The translations under genes were made by a program, and so were the position numbers. This document shows, in pieces, positions 1 to 5,615 of a stretch of 5,615 bases of DNA. The notes below the pieces were generated by a model. That model searched no databases. It was given only the letters and a program-made list of their open reading frames with translations, and had not been told where the DNA came from. Source of the stretch: a bacterium (GTDB taxonomy: Bacteria; Vulcanimicrobiota; Vulcanimicrobiia; Vulcanimicrobiales; SCRA01); the NCBI GenBank assembly GCA_004298675.1, contig SCRI01000029.1:1-5615 (forward strand), given 5' to 3'. Numbering within the stretch: position 1 is the first letter of the stretch; each line of letters begins with the position of its first letter.

Positions 1-339
1 GGCGCGGTCCTCGGCGTGGTCGAGCACGTAGCCGACTTGCTCCGGAAAGAGCCGGATGTTCGCGGTGTGAAGCACGGCGCCGATCGACGGGACGGCGTAG
101 TAGAGCTCGAGATGGCGGTGGGTGTTCCAGGCGAACGACGCGACGCGATCGCCCTTGCCGACACCCATGTGGCGCAGCGCGTTGGCGAGCTTGGCGACGC
201 GGCGCCCGAACGCTGCGTAGGTCAAGCGATGGATCCCGTCGTCGGCGCGCGAGACGATCTCGCGCTCGCCGTGGTTGGTCACGACGTGCGCCAAGATCGA
301 GGGAATGGTCAACGGCACGTCCATCATGAGTCCGCGCAT
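1..339 (-). CDS. Acyl-CoA ligase (AMP-forming fatty-acid--CoA synthetase), N-terminal part
   Basis: This is the first 113 codons of a gene that continues past the left edge. The translation starts MRGLMMDVPLTIPSIL and contains EIVSRADDG, HRLTYAAF, GDRVASFAWNTHRHLELYY, GAVLHTANIRLFPEQ and ends YVLDHAEDRA. These match the N-terminal domain of AMP-binding fatty-acid--CoA ligases of the AlkK/FadD-like group, which make acyl-CoA from fatty acid, ATP and CoA in the cytoplasm. Family members are usually about 540 residues, so roughly a fifth is seen. The ATP-binding P-loop and adenylation motifs lie outside the window, so chain-length preference cannot be judged. The start at base 339 is chosen because AAGGAGG (354-348, minus strand) sits 8 bases upstream; Met5 or Met6 would be poorer choices. 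It is transcribed away from nosZ and has no evident tie to N2O reduction. Confidence 0.9.
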   Translation of the reverse strand, partial: MRGLMMDVPLTIPSILAHVVTNHGEREIVSRADDGIHRLTYAAFGRRVAKLANALRHMGVGKGDRVASFAWNTHRHLELYYAVPSIGAVLHTANIRLFPEQVGYVLDHAEDRA

Positions 340-546
340 TGCAGCTGCCTCCTTCGCGGTTCTATGCTCGCCGAGCGCGGCTTTCGGCGCTGCAGAGCAC
401 CTTCCCCGCCGTATGTGGCGAGAAAAGTCGCACCATTCACACGGGCTGTCCGCTCGCTTCGCGACGTCTTCTTGTCGCATTCATATTGCTGTCGTACGTT
501 GGGCGCGGCAAAACGCTCATGTTTATACGGAGAGGTGTCCACGAGA
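340..546. promoter_or_regulatory. Divergent intergenic region between acyl-CoA ligase and nosZ
   Basis: These 207 bases separate two divergent genes and must hold at least the nosZ-side promoter unless that lies further away. The middle (about 470-530) is less G+C-rich than its surroundings and contains TTTATA at 522-527. On the plus strand this lies directly beside the nosZ ribosome site, so it would leave no leader and is not a believable -10 for nosZ. No TTGAT-N4-ATCAA palindrome of the FNR/NnrR type, no sigma-54 GG-N10-GC element and no strong terminator hairpin were seen. A short dyad, GCGAC at 461-465 and GTCGC at 474-478, is too weak to call an operator. The promoter assignment is inferred from gene orientation only. 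Confidence 0.4.
348..354 (-). promoter_or_regulatory. Ribosome binding site of the acyl-CoA ligase gene
   Basis: Read on the minus strand this is AAGGAGG, a near-perfect Shine-Dalgarno sequence, 8 bases before the ATG at 339. It decides between that ATG and the two closely following in-frame ATGs. Confidence 0.8.
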
Positions 547-2583
547 ATGCAAGGCAGCGAGAACGGCAATGGCAAACCGGGCGCGGCGATTAGCCGTGGC
601 GTGTTCATGGGCGGGCTCGGGACCGCGGGGGCTCTCCTGGCCACGGGCTGTAATACGCCCAAGCCGAGCAATGTGGCGTCCGCGGGAGGGCCAACGCCCG
701 GCGCGGCCGGCGCCGTATTGAGCGGCGATGCGCGCAAGATCGCCGAGGCGCGCGGCCTCGCGCCGGCCGACGTCGTTGCGGCGTTGAAGACCTACGTTCC
801 TTCGGGCAAGACGGACGAATACTACATGTTTGCCTCAGGCGGTCACAGCGGCCAGGTGCTGGTCGTTGGCCTGCCGTCGATGCGCCTGCTCAAGGTCATT
901 CCCGTCTTCAGTCCGGAATCGTACGGCGGCTGGGGCTTTTCGGAAGGCTCTCATGCCGTGCTCGAAGGCGGAGCCGTCGATGGCCGCCTCATCACTCATG
1001 GCGACACGCATCACCCTGCGTTCAGCGAGACCGACGGGGACTACGACGGGAAGTTCGTCTTTATCAACGATAAGGTGAATGCTCGCGTCGCCGTGATCGA
1101 TCTGCGTGACTTCGAATGCAAGCAGATCGTCAAGAATCCCGTAATCATCTCCAACCACGGGCACTGCGTCACGCCGAACACCGAGTATGTGATCGAGACC
1201 TCCCAATACGCCGTGCCGCCAGGCTGGAAGCCGGCGGCGGTGACGAAATCGGCCTATGCCAACGAATACCGCGGCGCCATGACGTTTTGGAAATTCGATC
1301 GGCCCAAGGGCAGGATCGACCCCCAGCGATCTTTTGTCCTCGAGCTTCCGCCGTACTGGCAGGACCTCACCGACGCCGGGAAGCTCGCCAGCGAGGGATG
1401 GGCGTTCTGCAACTCGATCAACACCGAGTTGGCCGTCCCCGAGGACTGGAACAACGGTCCGTCGATGGAAATCAGCGCCTCGCGCAACGATATGGACTTT
1501 CTTCACGTCGTAAACTGGAAAGCCGCGGAGTCCCTGGTCCGGAGCGGGAGGGTGAGTCAGAAGAACGGCATCGCGTATATTCCGATCGATCAGGCGGTGC
1601 GCGAAGGCCTGCTCTATCTGGTGCCTGAACCCAAGAGCCCGCATGGAGTCGATATCACGCCGGATGGCAAGTTCATCGTCGTCTGCGGTAAGCTTGATCC
1701 GCACGTCAGCATCTACAGCATCGCTAAGATCAAGCAGGCCATCGCCAAAGGCGGAATGCATAAAGACCCGTATGGCATTCCCATCGTCAATTTCGAGGAC
1801 GCGCTGGTAACGCAGATCAAAGTCGGCCTCGGTCCGTTGCATAACCAGTTTGATGACAAAGGAAATGGCTACACGAGCCTATTCCTCGATAGCGCCGTCA
1901 CCCGATGGACCGTCGGTGACGAGTCTGGCAAGGGCTGGAATCTCGTCGAGACCTTGCCCGTGCAGTACAACGTGGGGCACGTTGCCGCGCCACACGGCGA
2001 CACGGTGAAACCGCGAGGCGGGTATCTCGTGGCGCTCAACAAGTGGTCGCTGGATCGCTTCGTGCCCGTGGGGCCGTTTTATCCACGCAACCTTCAGCTC
2101 ATCGATACCTCCGGGCAACAGTTGCAGTTGCTGTACGATATGGGGATCGGCATGGCTGAGCCGCACTACGCGCAGATCATCGATGCCAAGCTGGTCAAGC
2201 CCGAGGATATCTATCCGCCGAATACCGACGTGTTCACCTTGAAGCCTGATCCCAAGGCTCCGGTCTTCGGAAAGGAGGGCACATCGGACCATGGCGACCA
2301 TGTCGAGGTCAACATGACCGTGATGCGCAGTACCTTCCGGCCCGACGTCGTGCGCGTTGAGCGTGGAAAGCGGGTCATCTGGCGCATCAACAACGTGGAG
2401 ACAGCGAAAAATGCCATCCACGGGTTCGCCTTGGCCGGTCACAACATCAGCCTGAGTCTCGAGCCGGGGAAGGTAGAGACAATCGAGATCGTCGCCGATC
2501 GACCGGGTACCTATCCGTACTACTGTACGGACTTCTGCTCGGCGCTGCACTTGGAGTTGATGGGCTACTTCGTCGTTACGTAA
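547..2583 (+). CDS. nosZ: Nitrous oxide reductase NosZ, clade II type, with lipoprotein-like leader
   Basis: NosZ reduces N2O to N2 outside the cytoplasmic membrane. The 678-residue protein shows the family's N-terminal seven-bladed propeller and C-terminal cupredoxin domain. All seven CuZ histidines can be placed: H100 (SGGHSGQ), H155 and H156 (GDTHHP), H366 (SPHGVD), H432 (GPLHNQF), H478 (NVGHV) and H540 (AEPHY). CuA ligands H625 (IHGF), C660, C664 and H668 are present, and the H625-C660 spacing of 35 equals that in characterised enzymes. The expected axial Met position, 671, is Leu, with Met at 672. The leader has S16-R17-G18-V19-F20-M21, a hydrophobic run and a lipobox LLATGC (Cys35). This suggests a Sec-type lipoprotein rather than Tat export. 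There is no C-terminal cytochrome c domain. ATG at 547 is chosen because the leader begins there and GGAGAGG (529-535) lies 11 bases upstream. The same frame stays open back to base 16, but that part is antisense to the ligase gene. An in-frame GTG at 535 overlaps the ribosome site and is unlikely as a start. Confidence 0.97.
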   Translation: MQGSENGNGKPGAAISRGVFMGGLGTAGALLATGCNTPKPSNVASAGGPTPGAAGAVLSGDARKIAEARGLAPADVVAALKTYVPSGKTDEYYMFASGGHSGQVLVVGLPSMRLLKVIPVFSPESYGGWGFSEGSHAVLEGGAVDGRLITHGDTHHPAFSETDGDYDGKFVFINDKVNARVAVIDLRDFECKQIVKNPVIISNHGHCVTPNTEYVIETSQYAVPPGWKPAAVTKSAYANEYRGAMTFWKFDRPKGRIDPQRSFVLELPPYWQDLTDAGKLASEGWAFCNSINTELAVPEDWNNGPSMEISASRNDMDFLHVVNWKAAESLVRSGRVSQKNGIAYIPIDQAVREGLLYLVPEPKSPHGVDITPDGKFIVVCGKLDPHVSIYSIAKIKQAIAKGGMHKDPYGIPIVNFEDALVTQIKVGLGPLHNQFDDKGNGYTSLFLDSAVTRWTVGDESGKGWNLVETLPVQYNVGHVAAPHGDTVKPRGGYLVALNKWSLDRFVPVGPFYPRNLQLIDTSGQQLQLLYDMGIGMAEPHYAQIIDAKLVKPEDIYPPNTDVFTLKPDPKAPVFGKEGTSDHGDHVEVNMTVMRSTFRPDVVRVERGKRVIWRINNVETAKNAIHGFALAGHNISLSLEPGKVETIEIVADRPGTYPYYCTDFCSALHLELMGYFVVT

Positions 2584-2595
2584 GGGGCGGGCACA

Positions 2596-3225
2596 ATGTC
2601 GTCACACGTGGAGACCATGGAAAAAACGACCGCGAAGCCGCCTATCATCACGACGCCGGTCAAGCAGGGCCGCAGGGTAAACGGCTTACTCCTCGTCGCG
2701 GCGGCGATGTTGCTGGTGGCGCTGTTCCTGCCGTGGTGGCAGATGTGGATGCACGCGCCGCAGTACCCGGATGGTCTAAGCGTTCAGGTCGGAATCTTCT
2801 CCGTCACCGGGGACGTTAGTGAGATCGACGATCTGAACCACTATATCGGGTTCATGCCGCTGGCTGCGATGGCGCCGGTGGAGCGGCACCTAGGCACGGT
2901 GCTGGCTCCGTTGATCGTGCTCTTGGTTGGTCTGGCCTCCCTCCTCGGAGGTCGCTGGAAGTGGCTGGCGCTGCCGGCGGTGGCGCTTCCCGTGTTCCTG
3001 GTCGTCGATCTGGCGTGGTGGCTCTGGTATGCGGGGCACCACTTGAATCCGTACGCCGCTCTCTCCACGAGCGTGGCACCCTGGACGCCGCATCTGTTCG
3101 GGCCTGGCGGCGTAGGTCAGTTCCACACCTTCGCCATGTTCGGCGCGGGGTTCTGGCTCTCAGCAGCGGCGGCTCTGCTGATGATCGTGGCGCTCGTCCG
3201 TACGGAAGGATCCGGACACGCGTGA
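2596..3225 (+). CDS. nosB: NosB-like four-helix membrane protein
   Basis: A 209-residue membrane protein of unknown function, 12 bases after nosZ. Clade II nos clusters such as that of Wolinella succinogenes carry a membrane protein gene, nosB, in this place. The name here rests on position, topology and the pattern APQYPDGL (54-61) ... LNHYIG (80-85), which I recall from proteins beside nos genes. Likely helices are 28-47, 100-118, 122-147 and 178-201. The basic stretch KQGRR before helix 1, RWK between helices 2 and 3 and Arg202 after helix 4 put both ends in the cytoplasm. Two loops then face outward: 48-99, with M50, M52, H53 and H82, and 148-177, with H148, H149, H166 and H177. These could touch copper or NosZ, but that is a guess. 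ATG 2596 is chosen because AAGGGG (2582-2587), overlapping the nosZ stop, is 8 bases upstream; ATG 2617 is an alternative. The stop TGA overlaps the nosD GTG start. Confidence 0.85.
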   Translation: MSSHVETMEKTTAKPPIITTPVKQGRRVNGLLLVAAAMLLVALFLPWWQMWMHAPQYPDGLSVQVGIFSVTGDVSEIDDLNHYIGFMPLAAMAPVERHLGTVLAPLIVLLVGLASLLGGRWKWLALPAVALPVFLVVDLAWWLWYAGHHLNPYAALSTSVAPWTPHLFGPGGVGQFHTFAMFGAGFWLSAAAALLMIVALVRTEGSGHA

Positions 3226-5300
3226 TTGCAGCGCCTCCCCCCGCCTTGGTCTGCCGCGCCTGTACAGCGTCGACGCTCGAGCGCATGCTGACAGACTTTC
3301 CGCCTGGTACGGTGGTGCGAGTCGTCGGGGGAACGTATCGCGGTCATTTCACGGTAGGGCGGGGGGTGAGTGTCGAGGGAGAGCAGGCAACCCTTGACGG
3401 AGGCGGCTCTGGCACCGTGCTCACGATCGACGGGGCCGGCGCGCGAGTCTCGGGTTTGACGATTCGCGGTAGCGGCAGGGATTTCGTGGGTATCGACGCG
3501 GGTGTGCGGATCGCCGCCCCCGACGTTCGTCTAGAGAACGTCATGCTCACTGACAATCTCTTCGGTGTCGATGTCAGGGGCGCGCCAAGGGCACTGCTTC
3601 GCGGGATCACGGTAGAGGGACTCGTCGATCGGCCCATCCCGCTGCGCGGAGACGCGCTGCGTCTGTGGAATAGCCCCGGCGCGCGGATCGAGGAGAATAC
3701 GTTCAAGGACTCACGAGATATCTTGGTGTGGTTCTCCGACGACAGCCAGCTCGTTGGGAATCGGATATCGGGCTGTCGCTACGGCCTGCACAGCATGTAC
3801 GAGTCGGGTATGTCCGTCAGCGCAAACACTATCGGGTCGTGCGAGGTCGGCTCGTATCTTATGTACTCGAAGCATCTATCGATCGAGCGCAACGTCTTCG
3901 CGCATAACCGCGGCTCCACCGGCTACGGTCTAGCCTTGAAATCGGATGATGACGTGGTCATCAGCGATAATGCGTTCGTCGATGACCACGTCGGGGTCTA
4001 CCTCGACGACTCGCCTTCTTCAATCGGCGCTGGCCTCCGGGTCGAGGGTAACCTCTTCGCATACGACGGCGTGGGCTTCTCCGCGACGCCCGCGACCAGG
4101 GGAGGCGTGGTGGTTGGAAACGCCTTCGTGGACAACCTGGTACAGGCGCACGCGGCCGGCAATGGCGACCTTCGGGGCATGACGTGGAGCCGTGGCGGCC
4201 ACGGGAACTATTGGAGCGACTACGCGGGTTTCGACACGAGCGGGCGCGGCATCGGAGATATCCCATACACGGCGATCAGCGGCTTTGGCACGCTCGCTGC
4301 GCAAGAGCCTGCTCTCCAGGTCTTTGTCTATAGCCCCGCCGCCGTCGCCGTCGACTTCGCAACGCATGCTTTGCCGGCGTTCGCGCCGAGCATCCAGCTC
4401 GTGGATCGAGCACCGGCGCTGCGCGCTTGGCTACCTCACGATCTGCCTTGGCCGCATCGTTCCGGCACCGCCGTGCCGCTGCTGGGCTTTGCCCTCTTGG
4501 CGCTGGGCGGAGCTGGGGCCATGGGCGCGATCTCCCGCCGCAGCGGCCGTTACGGGCTGCGCCGCCACCCCCGCGCGGAAAGGACGAAGACCTTGAGTTC
4601 CGTGCCCATCATCTCGGCGCGCGAGGTGTGCAAGTCGTACGGCAAGACGCTCGCGCTGGCCGATGCCACGTTCCAGGTCGTCACCGGCGAGACCCTCGCG
4701 CTCTGGGGCCCCAACGGTGCCGGCAAGACCACGCTTCTGCGGTGCTTGTTGGGGCAGGTTTCGTATCGCGGCTCGCTGACGGTCGCGGGCATGCGCCCCT
4801 CCCCACGCCTTCCCGCCGCAAGGGCGCTGATGGGATATGCGCCGCAGTCGCTCCCGGACTTCGAGATGAGCGTCGCGGAACTGGCCGCGATGGTCGGCTC
4901 GCTGCGCGGGTGCGATGCGACGGAGATCGAGGCGGCGCTCGCGGAGACGGGAGCCGACCAGGCTCGCGGTACGGCCGTCGGCGCGCTTTCCGGCGGTATG
5001 AAGCAACGCTTGAACGTGGCCTTGGCGCTGCTGGGCGAGCCGCCGATTCTCGTGCTCGACGAGCCGACTGCCGGGCTCGATCGCGCCAGCCACCGCAGCC
5101 TGGTCGAATTGTTGCGCGAGCGCAAGCGCCTCGGCAAGACGATCATTCTCACCTCGCACGACGCCGACGACGTACTGGCGCTGGCCGACCATGTCGCGAT
5201 GATGGAGGACGGGCGTATGGTAAGCGTGATGGGCGTCGATCGTTTCGCTGCGTTGATGCGTCGCCAATACGAGGAGGACGCTGCATGGCACCGGGCGTGA
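3222..5300 (+). CDS. nosD: NosD copper-site assembly protein, read continuously into the NosF ATPase (692 codons)
   Basis: NosD is the periplasmic beta-helix partner of the NosFY ABC transporter and is needed to assemble the CuZ cluster of NosZ. Residues about 25-335 form parallel beta-helix repeats (CASH/NosD type) with family hallmarks RGDALRLWNSPG (142-153), RYGLHSMY (186-193), GSYLMYS (210-216), GYGLALK (234-240), GVYLDDSP (258-265) and GNYWSDYAGFD (328-338) followed by GIGDIPY. A hydrophobic helix, about 417-437, precedes a basic tail SRRSGRYGLRR, so the chain after it should be cytoplasmic. No stop follows: the frame enters a complete NosF domain at about residue 458. As written, the product is a NosD-helix-NosF fusion with workable topology from the beta-helix onward. 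A TTGA junction and an internal ribosome site suggest two separate genes in origin. GTG at 3222 overlaps the nosB stop (GTGA), with GGAAGGA at 3204-3210. The N-terminus has C11 and C14 but no clear signal peptide, which is odd for NosD. Confidence 0.88.
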   Translation: MIAAPPPALVCRACTASTLERMLTDFPPGTVVRVVGGTYRGHFTVGRGVSVEGEQATLDGGGSGTVLTIDGAGARVSGLTIRGSGRDFVGIDAGVRIAAPDVRLENVMLTDNLFGVDVRGAPRALLRGITVEGLVDRPIPLRGDALRLWNSPGARIEENTFKDSRDILVWFSDDSQLVGNRISGCRYGLHSMYESGMSVSANTIGSCEVGSYLMYSKHLSIERNVFAHNRGSTGYGLALKSDDDVVISDNAFVDDHVGVYLDDSPSSIGAGLRVEGNLFAYDGVGFSATPATRGGVVVGNAFVDNLVQAHAAGNGDLRGMTWSRGGHGNYWSDYAGFDTSGRGIGDIPYTAISGFGTLAAQEPALQVFVYSPAAVAVDFATHALPAFAPSIQLVDRAPALRAWLPHDLPWPHRSGTAVPLLGFALLALGGAGAMGAISRRSGRYGLRRHPRAERTKTLSSVPIISAREVCKSYGKTLALADATFQVVTGETLALWGPNGAGKTTLLRCLLGQVSYRGSLTVAGMRPSPRLPAARALMGYAPQSLPDFEMSVAELAAMVGSLRGCDATEIEAALAETGADQARGTAVGALSGGMKQRLNVALALLGEPPILVLDEPTAGLDRASHRSLVELLRERKRLGKTIILTSHDADDVLALADHVAMMEDGRMVSVMGVDRFAALMRRQYEEDAAWHRA
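4577..4584 (+). promoter_or_regulatory. Internal ribosome binding site ahead of the nosF TTG
   Basis: GGAAAGGA lies 8 bases upstream of TTG 4593, inside the open frame that joins nosD and nosF. It supports independent initiation of NosF even though no stop separates the two. The TTG overlaps a TGA in the neighbouring frame (TTGA, 4593-4596), the same style of junction as GTGA between nosB and nosD. Confidence 0.6.
4593..5300 (+). CDS. nosF: NosF ABC-transporter ATPase (internal TTG start within the nosD-nosF frame)
   Basis: NosF is the cytoplasmic ATPase driving NosDFY. From the TTG at 4593 it is 235 residues, shorter than the roughly 300 of Pseudomonas NosF. All nucleotide-binding motifs are present, numbered from this start: Walker A GPNGAGKTT (39-47, Lys45), Q-loop GYAPQ (Gln85), signature LSGGMKQR (132-139), Walker B ILVLDEPTAGLD (152-163, Glu157) and the switch His189 in TSHDADD. 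TTG is preferred because GGAAAGGA (4577-4584) lies 8 bases upstream and the ABC fold begins a few residues later (PIISAREVCKSYGK). GTG at 4602 is another possible start. It shares its frame with nosD with no stop between, so it may be made separately, as the C-terminal half of a NosD-NosF chain, or both. Its stop lies inside the nosY start region, implying coupled translation. Assignment to NosF rather than another ABC ATPase rests on its place between nosD and nosY. Confidence 0.85.
   Translation: MSSVPIISAREVCKSYGKTLALADATFQVVTGETLALWGPNGAGKTTLLRCLLGQVSYRGSLTVAGMRPSPRLPAARALMGYAPQSLPDFEMSVAELAAMVGSLRGCDATEIEAALAETGADQARGTAVGALSGGMKQRLNVALALLGEPPILVLDEPTAGLDRASHRSLVELLRERKRLGKTIILTSHDADDVLALADHVAMMEDGRMVSVMGVDRFAALMRRQYEEDAAWHRA
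5271..5277 (+). promoter_or_regulatory. Ribosome binding site of nosY
   Basis: GAGGAGG lies 7 bases upstream of ATG 5285, inside the end of nosF. It favours that ATG over the in-frame GTG at 5297, which forms a GTGA overlap with the nosF stop but would be 19 bases from this site. Confidence 0.7.
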
Positions 5301-5615
5301 CGCTGGCCATGGTGGAACTGCGCTCGGCGCTGCGTAATCGCTGGCTGCAATATTACACCGCCGCGTTCGCGTTGCTCGCCGGCCTGCTTTCGTTCGGCGG
5401 GCTGGCGGCGGCCGGGTTCGGCGGGGCGGCGGGCTTCGGCCCCACGGCGGCGAGCCTGATCTCGCTCAATCTCGTCATCGTTCCGCTGATGGCGTTGACG
5501 GTGGGGGCCCTCGCGTACTGCCGCGATCGCGAGCGCGGAACGCTCTCGTACTTGGGGGCGCTGCCGCTCTCCGTGGACAGCATCTTCTGGGCCAAGGCAC
5601 TGGGCTTGGCCGTCG
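5285..5615 (+). CDS. nosY: NosY ABC-transporter permease, N-terminal part
   Basis: The first 110 codons of the membrane domain of NosDFY; the gene runs off the right edge. NosY pairs with NosF in the membrane and holds NosD on the outer face, supporting CuZ assembly. Visible family features are an amphipathic start ELRSALRNRWLQYY (11-24), a first membrane helix at about 25-44, a Gly/Ala-rich outer loop, TAASLISLNLVIVPLMAL (54-71) leading into a second helix to about 78, then a cytoplasmic DRERGTLSYLGALPLS (81-96) and the start of a further segment GKALGL-like (AKALGLAV). Full NosY proteins are usually about 270 residues with six helices, so some 40 percent is seen. ATG 5285 overlaps the nosF stop by 16 bases and has a good ribosome site. 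The alternative GTG at 5297 would remove only four residues. Confidence 0.92.
   Translation, partial: MAPGVTLAMVELRSALRNRWLQYYTAAFALLAGLLSFGGLAAAGFGGAAGFGPTAASLISLNLVIVPLMALTVGALAYCRDRERGTLSYLGALPLSVDSIFWAKALGLAV

Follow-up and report, generated by a model that had tools for sequence, protein, structure and literature searches.

The strong greenhouse gas N2O has its main biological sink in N2O reductase, and organisms of clade II contribute importantly to N2O consumption. Copper for the NosDFY system normally comes from NosL, and NosB is a clade II protein of unknown function. To our knowledge, the joint working of NosD, NosF and NosY in copper loading is known structurally only from the solved NosDFY complex. 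In the PDB, NosD is present as 16 chains in 16 NosDFY entries and NosF as 30 chains in 15, one NosD and two NosF each. The unfused clade II NosD of Bacillus azotoformans carries a C-terminal membrane helix (PMC3475470). A literature search recovered no paper describing a NosD-NosF fusion or a fusion together with free NosF; the main NosDFY structure paper lay outside that search, and priority is not certain.

The stretch of DNA analysed here (the window, 5615 bases) is one entire contig holding nosZ, a nosB-like gene, a fused nosDF and the 5′ part of nosY (Table 1). As expected of a clade II nos operon, a Sec-type NosZ is followed by the nosB-like gene (TIGR04246; NosZ tree). The product of the latter had neither a Pfam nor an NCBIfam match, and its gene shares a GTGA overlap with nosDF. 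By eye only, the N-terminus of NosZ (window 538–690) resembles a lipoprotein signal, GALLATGC. We did not find NosL (PF05573) in the window's genus (G000–G003) or a second nosD in the genome, and the PADLOC matches were generic ATPase hits.

Table 1. Features of the window, with the evidence for each.
Feature	Position	Strand	Evidence
nosZ, clade II (Sec-type) nitrous oxide reductase	538..2583	+	TIGR04246, 774 bits vs cut-off 625
nosB-like membrane protein gene	2596..3225	+	ORF; position after nosZ; homologues likewise placed in relatives
nosDF, 692-codon single frame, NosD fused to NosF	3222..5300	+	ORF; NosD and ATPase profiles; kept in 24 genomes
NosD beta-helix domain	3222..4440	+	TIGR04247 residues 20–400; AlphaFold beta-helix residues 8–312
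Membrane helix LLGFALLALGGAGAMGAIS	4479..4535	+	hydropathy 1.81 over 19 residues
Basic linker, Arg/Lys-rich	4536..4604	+	sequence; purifying selection in fused frame
Run of five C	4568..4572	+	absent in congeners, without frame change there
AAAGGA, Shine-Dalgarno motif of putative internal start	4579..4584	+	motif and spacing common to congeners
TTG, putative in-frame internal NosF start	4593..4595	+	kept in three congeners
NosF ATPase domain	4606..5297	+	PF00005; Walker A, LSGG signature, Walker B, His switch; fold match 7osf_B
nosY, 5′ part, contig end inside gene	5285..5615	+	ORF 4427–5614; nosY comes next in L056

The frame from GTG 3222 to TGA 5298–5300 is open throughout and encodes 692 aa, in the order NosD beta-helix, 19-residue hydrophobic segment, arginine-rich linker and complete NosF ATPase. 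This layout had been read from the letters in a preliminary description, and the ORF and the profiles agree with it. Residues 20–400 match the NosD model TIGR04247 with 325 bits against a cut-off of 300, Pfam NosD (PF05048) covers residues 137–336 and ABC_tran (PF00005) residues 480–617. The first half is thus a NosD by its curated cut-off and its beta-helix fold, and the second a NosF by all four ATPase motifs and by NosF being its best structural match. AlphaFold was confident for the beta-helix (residues 8–312) and the ATPase (residues 460–686), and the junction between the two parts was of low confidence (low pLDDT). The best PDB fold match of the fused protein was the NosF of NosDFYL (7osf_B), the NosD of the same entry was also found, and 7o0y_B was matched to the NosF half by sequence. 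The protein differs from the separate-chain NosDFY (1:2:2) in that NosD and NosF share one frame. Judged by family and operon, it would take part in maturation of the NosZ copper site.

We then compared nos loci from other genomes, with newly collected loci screened for the fusion by BLAST. Including the window, the fused frame is present in 24 genomes, and the tethering of NosD to NosF through one membrane helix and a basic, cytoplasmic-type linker, suggested in the preliminary description, is a genuine variant architecture. In the window's phylum, NosD was found in 8 of 149 genomes and seven of these eight are fused, including families outside the window's own. In Armatimonadota, to which the Fimbriimonadales genome L011 belongs, the fusion is present in all eight genomes that have a real NosD; it is present in 8 of 23 in the phylum of genome G516 and in none of 13 in that of G518. 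On the complete megaplasmid of Thermomicrobium roseum DSM 5159, TRD_RS13830 (WP_012643063.1) is one 784-aa CDS with both halves, annotated as NosD only.

Several Armatimonadota carry longer fusions. G371 has a D-F fusion, G149 and G316 have D-F-Y in one frame, G213 has B-D-F in one frame and G214 has B-D-F up to the contig end. In G324, G326 and G327, B-D-F-Y form a single chain (L095, L096 and L097, an open frame of about 1,300 codons), and the former NosD signal sequence is now an internal helix. With the signal turned into a helix, the helix order fits a predicted topology in which NosB ends inside, NosD lies outside and NosF inside. A Neisseria hit from the plasmid search was ruled out as a fusion since its NosD is split over two separate frames. 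Two further arrangements were seen. At L135:1512–4835 (G672), a NosR-like protein (named by eye) and NosD lie in one 1,108-codon open frame, a possible NosR-NosD fusion, and in L157 and L161 (G682 and G683) one open frame holds matches to both NosB and NosD, with NosF separate.

In a tree of the NosD and NosF cores, built without the linker, all 24 fused genomes and the unfused G665 fell into one clade (support 97/94), which indicates that the fusion is old. The window grouped with T. roseum and G054 (support 100/99). A strictly fused-only clade was not rejected (p-AU 0.108), nor is it shown by that value, and in the NosZ tree every fused operon included fell into one subclade of clade II. The nosD and nosF of G665 (L142) are separate with an ATGA overlap, a possible reversal inside the fused clade. 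Among unfused relatives, NosD often ends in a helix and a short basic tail, and nosD and nosF often share a 4-nt ATGA or GTGA overlap. Loss of the nosD stop would then be an easy route to fusion, with the nosF start left intact. These results are best explained if nosD and nosF fused long ago in a branch of clade II nos operons and the fused gene has been inherited since.

NosD of the window's genus (L056, L057 and L051 included) begins VIAAPPPALVCRAC, and hydropathy shows no clear signal peptide in it; one is present in T. roseum and in most of the other fused relatives. For the window's NosD, an outside location is a prediction from its family. Signal peptides are not strictly defining for NosD, since two of the five NosDs of B. 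azotoformans are reported to lack a predicted Sec signal (PMC3475470). In the genus NosD, an LVCxxC motif (window 3222–3270) lines up by eye with the point where mature T. roseum NosD begins. A NosB-NosD frameshift as an export route for the signal-less NosD was considered and rejected, since the four-helix NosB should end inside the cell and would be of no help.

The window contig and contig C132 of genome G002 (L057) are collinear end to end, with exactly 120 identical bases at each end (window 1–120 and 5496–5615), the pattern expected of two arms of one assembly bubble. They differ by about 15–45% over nosZ, nosB and the NosD part and by about 4% over NosF and nosY. Identity jumps near 4620, and in one other region the same genomes are 88% identical. 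The jump suggests that one of the assemblies has either a recombined locus here or a chimera. This mosaic leaves the fused state of the other genomes untouched.

The preliminary description had noted a run of five C in the linker and proposed that separate genes were fused by a +1 change there or that the extra C was a sequencing error. The run is present, as are AAAGGA at 4579–4584, TTGA at 4593–4596 and the alternative-frame TGA at 4594–4596 (ORF 4192–4596). Neither proposal held up. Two other species of the genus, about 65% identical to the window over NosD, carry this fused frame too, so that near relatives, which might have had separate genes, are fused instead. Congeners lack the C-run and show no frame-changing indel relative to the window, the sole length difference nearby being one whole codon inserted in L057. 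Since congeners without the run are nevertheless fused, a programmed frameshift at the run is likewise ruled out. Helix and linker together have a dN/dS of 0.11–0.23 (Nei-Gojobori count), with linker dN well below dS, and their changes relative to L056 fall 3, 7 and 23 times on codon positions 1, 2 and 3. Such coding-type substitutions mean that the linker is read as protein in the fused frame, and, together with the congeners, they give no support to either a +1 change of recent date or a surplus base. An artefact, either the extra C or a chimeric contig joining two truly separate genes, might be suspected from a contig that is short, is one arm of an apparent assembly bubble and changes abruptly in identity to L057. 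We consider it very improbable. The C-run lies 5′ of the identity jump, which places the linker in one stretch with NosD, and 23 other genomes carry the fused frame, families far apart on the tree among them and one a complete isolate genome; for the architecture as such, these many independent relatives refute error. We therefore retain the fused gene as real.

A real fusion could still be processed after its synthesis, with a protease separating NosD from NosF. In favour of this, the linker is long, with poor conservation (12% identity in the G516 phylum) and predicted disorder (low pLDDT). Against it, we saw no conserved cleavage motif among the linkers by eye, there would be no need to keep the frame open over linkers this divergent if NosD and NosF had to come apart, and in Armatimonadota fusion has extended to NosY and NosB. 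Cleavage is accordingly unlikely. A different question is whether NosF is also made on its own. Twelve of the 24 fused frames contain a Shine-Dalgarno motif with a start codon in frame, 33–43 codons ahead of Walker A, roughly where an unfused nosF starts. At 144 control offsets the mean was 1.07 and the maximum 4, and none of 20,000 random placements reached the observed 12, a figure that overstates significance since related sequences are not independent. Carriers fall into four tree groups: the window's genus, f14/f15, the G516 phylum and one Armatimonadota genome. The site could be a mere relic or coincidence, with the real fused frame giving one 692-aa protein and no free NosF. It is absent in T. 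roseum, G054 and seven of eight Armatimonadota, so a fused gene does not need it. TTG starts are weak, and several origins of the fusion, which are possible, would be expected to leave relic starts. This view has to account for 12 sites where about one is expected and for their persistence in the G516 phylum, where five of eight genomes keep the site although linker identity is only 12%, compared with 59% in the flanking parts. It also has to account for the window's genus, where the site codons AGG, ACG, ACC and TTG are identical in three species (noticed after the fact), whereas in the NosD part before 4560 one codon is kept across the three species at only 37% of conserved residues. We regard the relic as doubtful, and lean towards the internal site, taken alone, being a translated start. 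Thus, the TTG and its ribosome site stand as first described, but we do not follow their reading as a leftover of the ancestral gene; a retained, probably working internal start fits better. By the same sequence evidence, many fused genes may make both the fused NosD-NosF and free NosF.

Our main reading, to which we assign a probability of about 0.8, is that the fusion is one translated protein working as NosD plus NosF. The NosD beta-helix would lie outside the membrane, as known for the family, anchored by its C-terminal helix, and the same helix would continue into NosF on the inner side. ATP-driven motion of NosF and NosY would thereby be physically coupled to the hand-over of copper from NosD to NosZ, the job being that of separate NosDFY. 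In about half of the fused genes, the window's included, ribosomes may also initiate at the old nosF start (TTG 4593 here), and the added free NosF would make a complex of one NosD, two NosF and two NosY possible. Where the internal site is missing (T. roseum and most Armatimonadota), the NosD:NosF ratio would be 1:1. The wider proposal, that a major clade II branch uses a tethered NosD-NosF tuned by an internal start giving free NosF for 1:2:2, and that Armatimonadota went on to a single-chain NosB-NosD-NosF-NosY at 1:1:1:1, we would put at even odds.

Natural tethered forms, including one-chain NosBDFY, can serve as simpler constructs in structural studies and make it possible to test directly whether the unequal NosD:NosF ratio is important. 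The NosB fusions tie NosB to the NosDFY machine, and genes labelled NosD alone conceal an ATPase half.

Compared with the NosDFY(L) complex (PDB 7o0y and 7osf), the locus has like components and folds, both NosD and NosF being found by sequence and by fold, but in the complex they are separate chains whereas the window joins them in one through a membrane helix and a linker. Unfused clade II NosDs (B. azotoformans and the G518 phylum) have the same C-terminal helix and short basic tail but end after the tail, with nosF as its own gene, often with a 4-nt overlap. T. roseum shares the NosD-NosF fusion and the operon order nosZ-nosB-nosDF-nosY; it differs in the clear signal peptide of its NosD, in having no internal Shine-Dalgarno start and in a nosL after nosY. 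In some type I CRISPR systems, an in-frame internal start inside the large-subunit gene supplies Cas11 as an extra small subunit. The likeness to Cas11, a lead only, is that a single gene would yield both a long protein and additional copies of the C-terminal portion; there is no homology between the two, and for nosDF the internal product is a predicted one.
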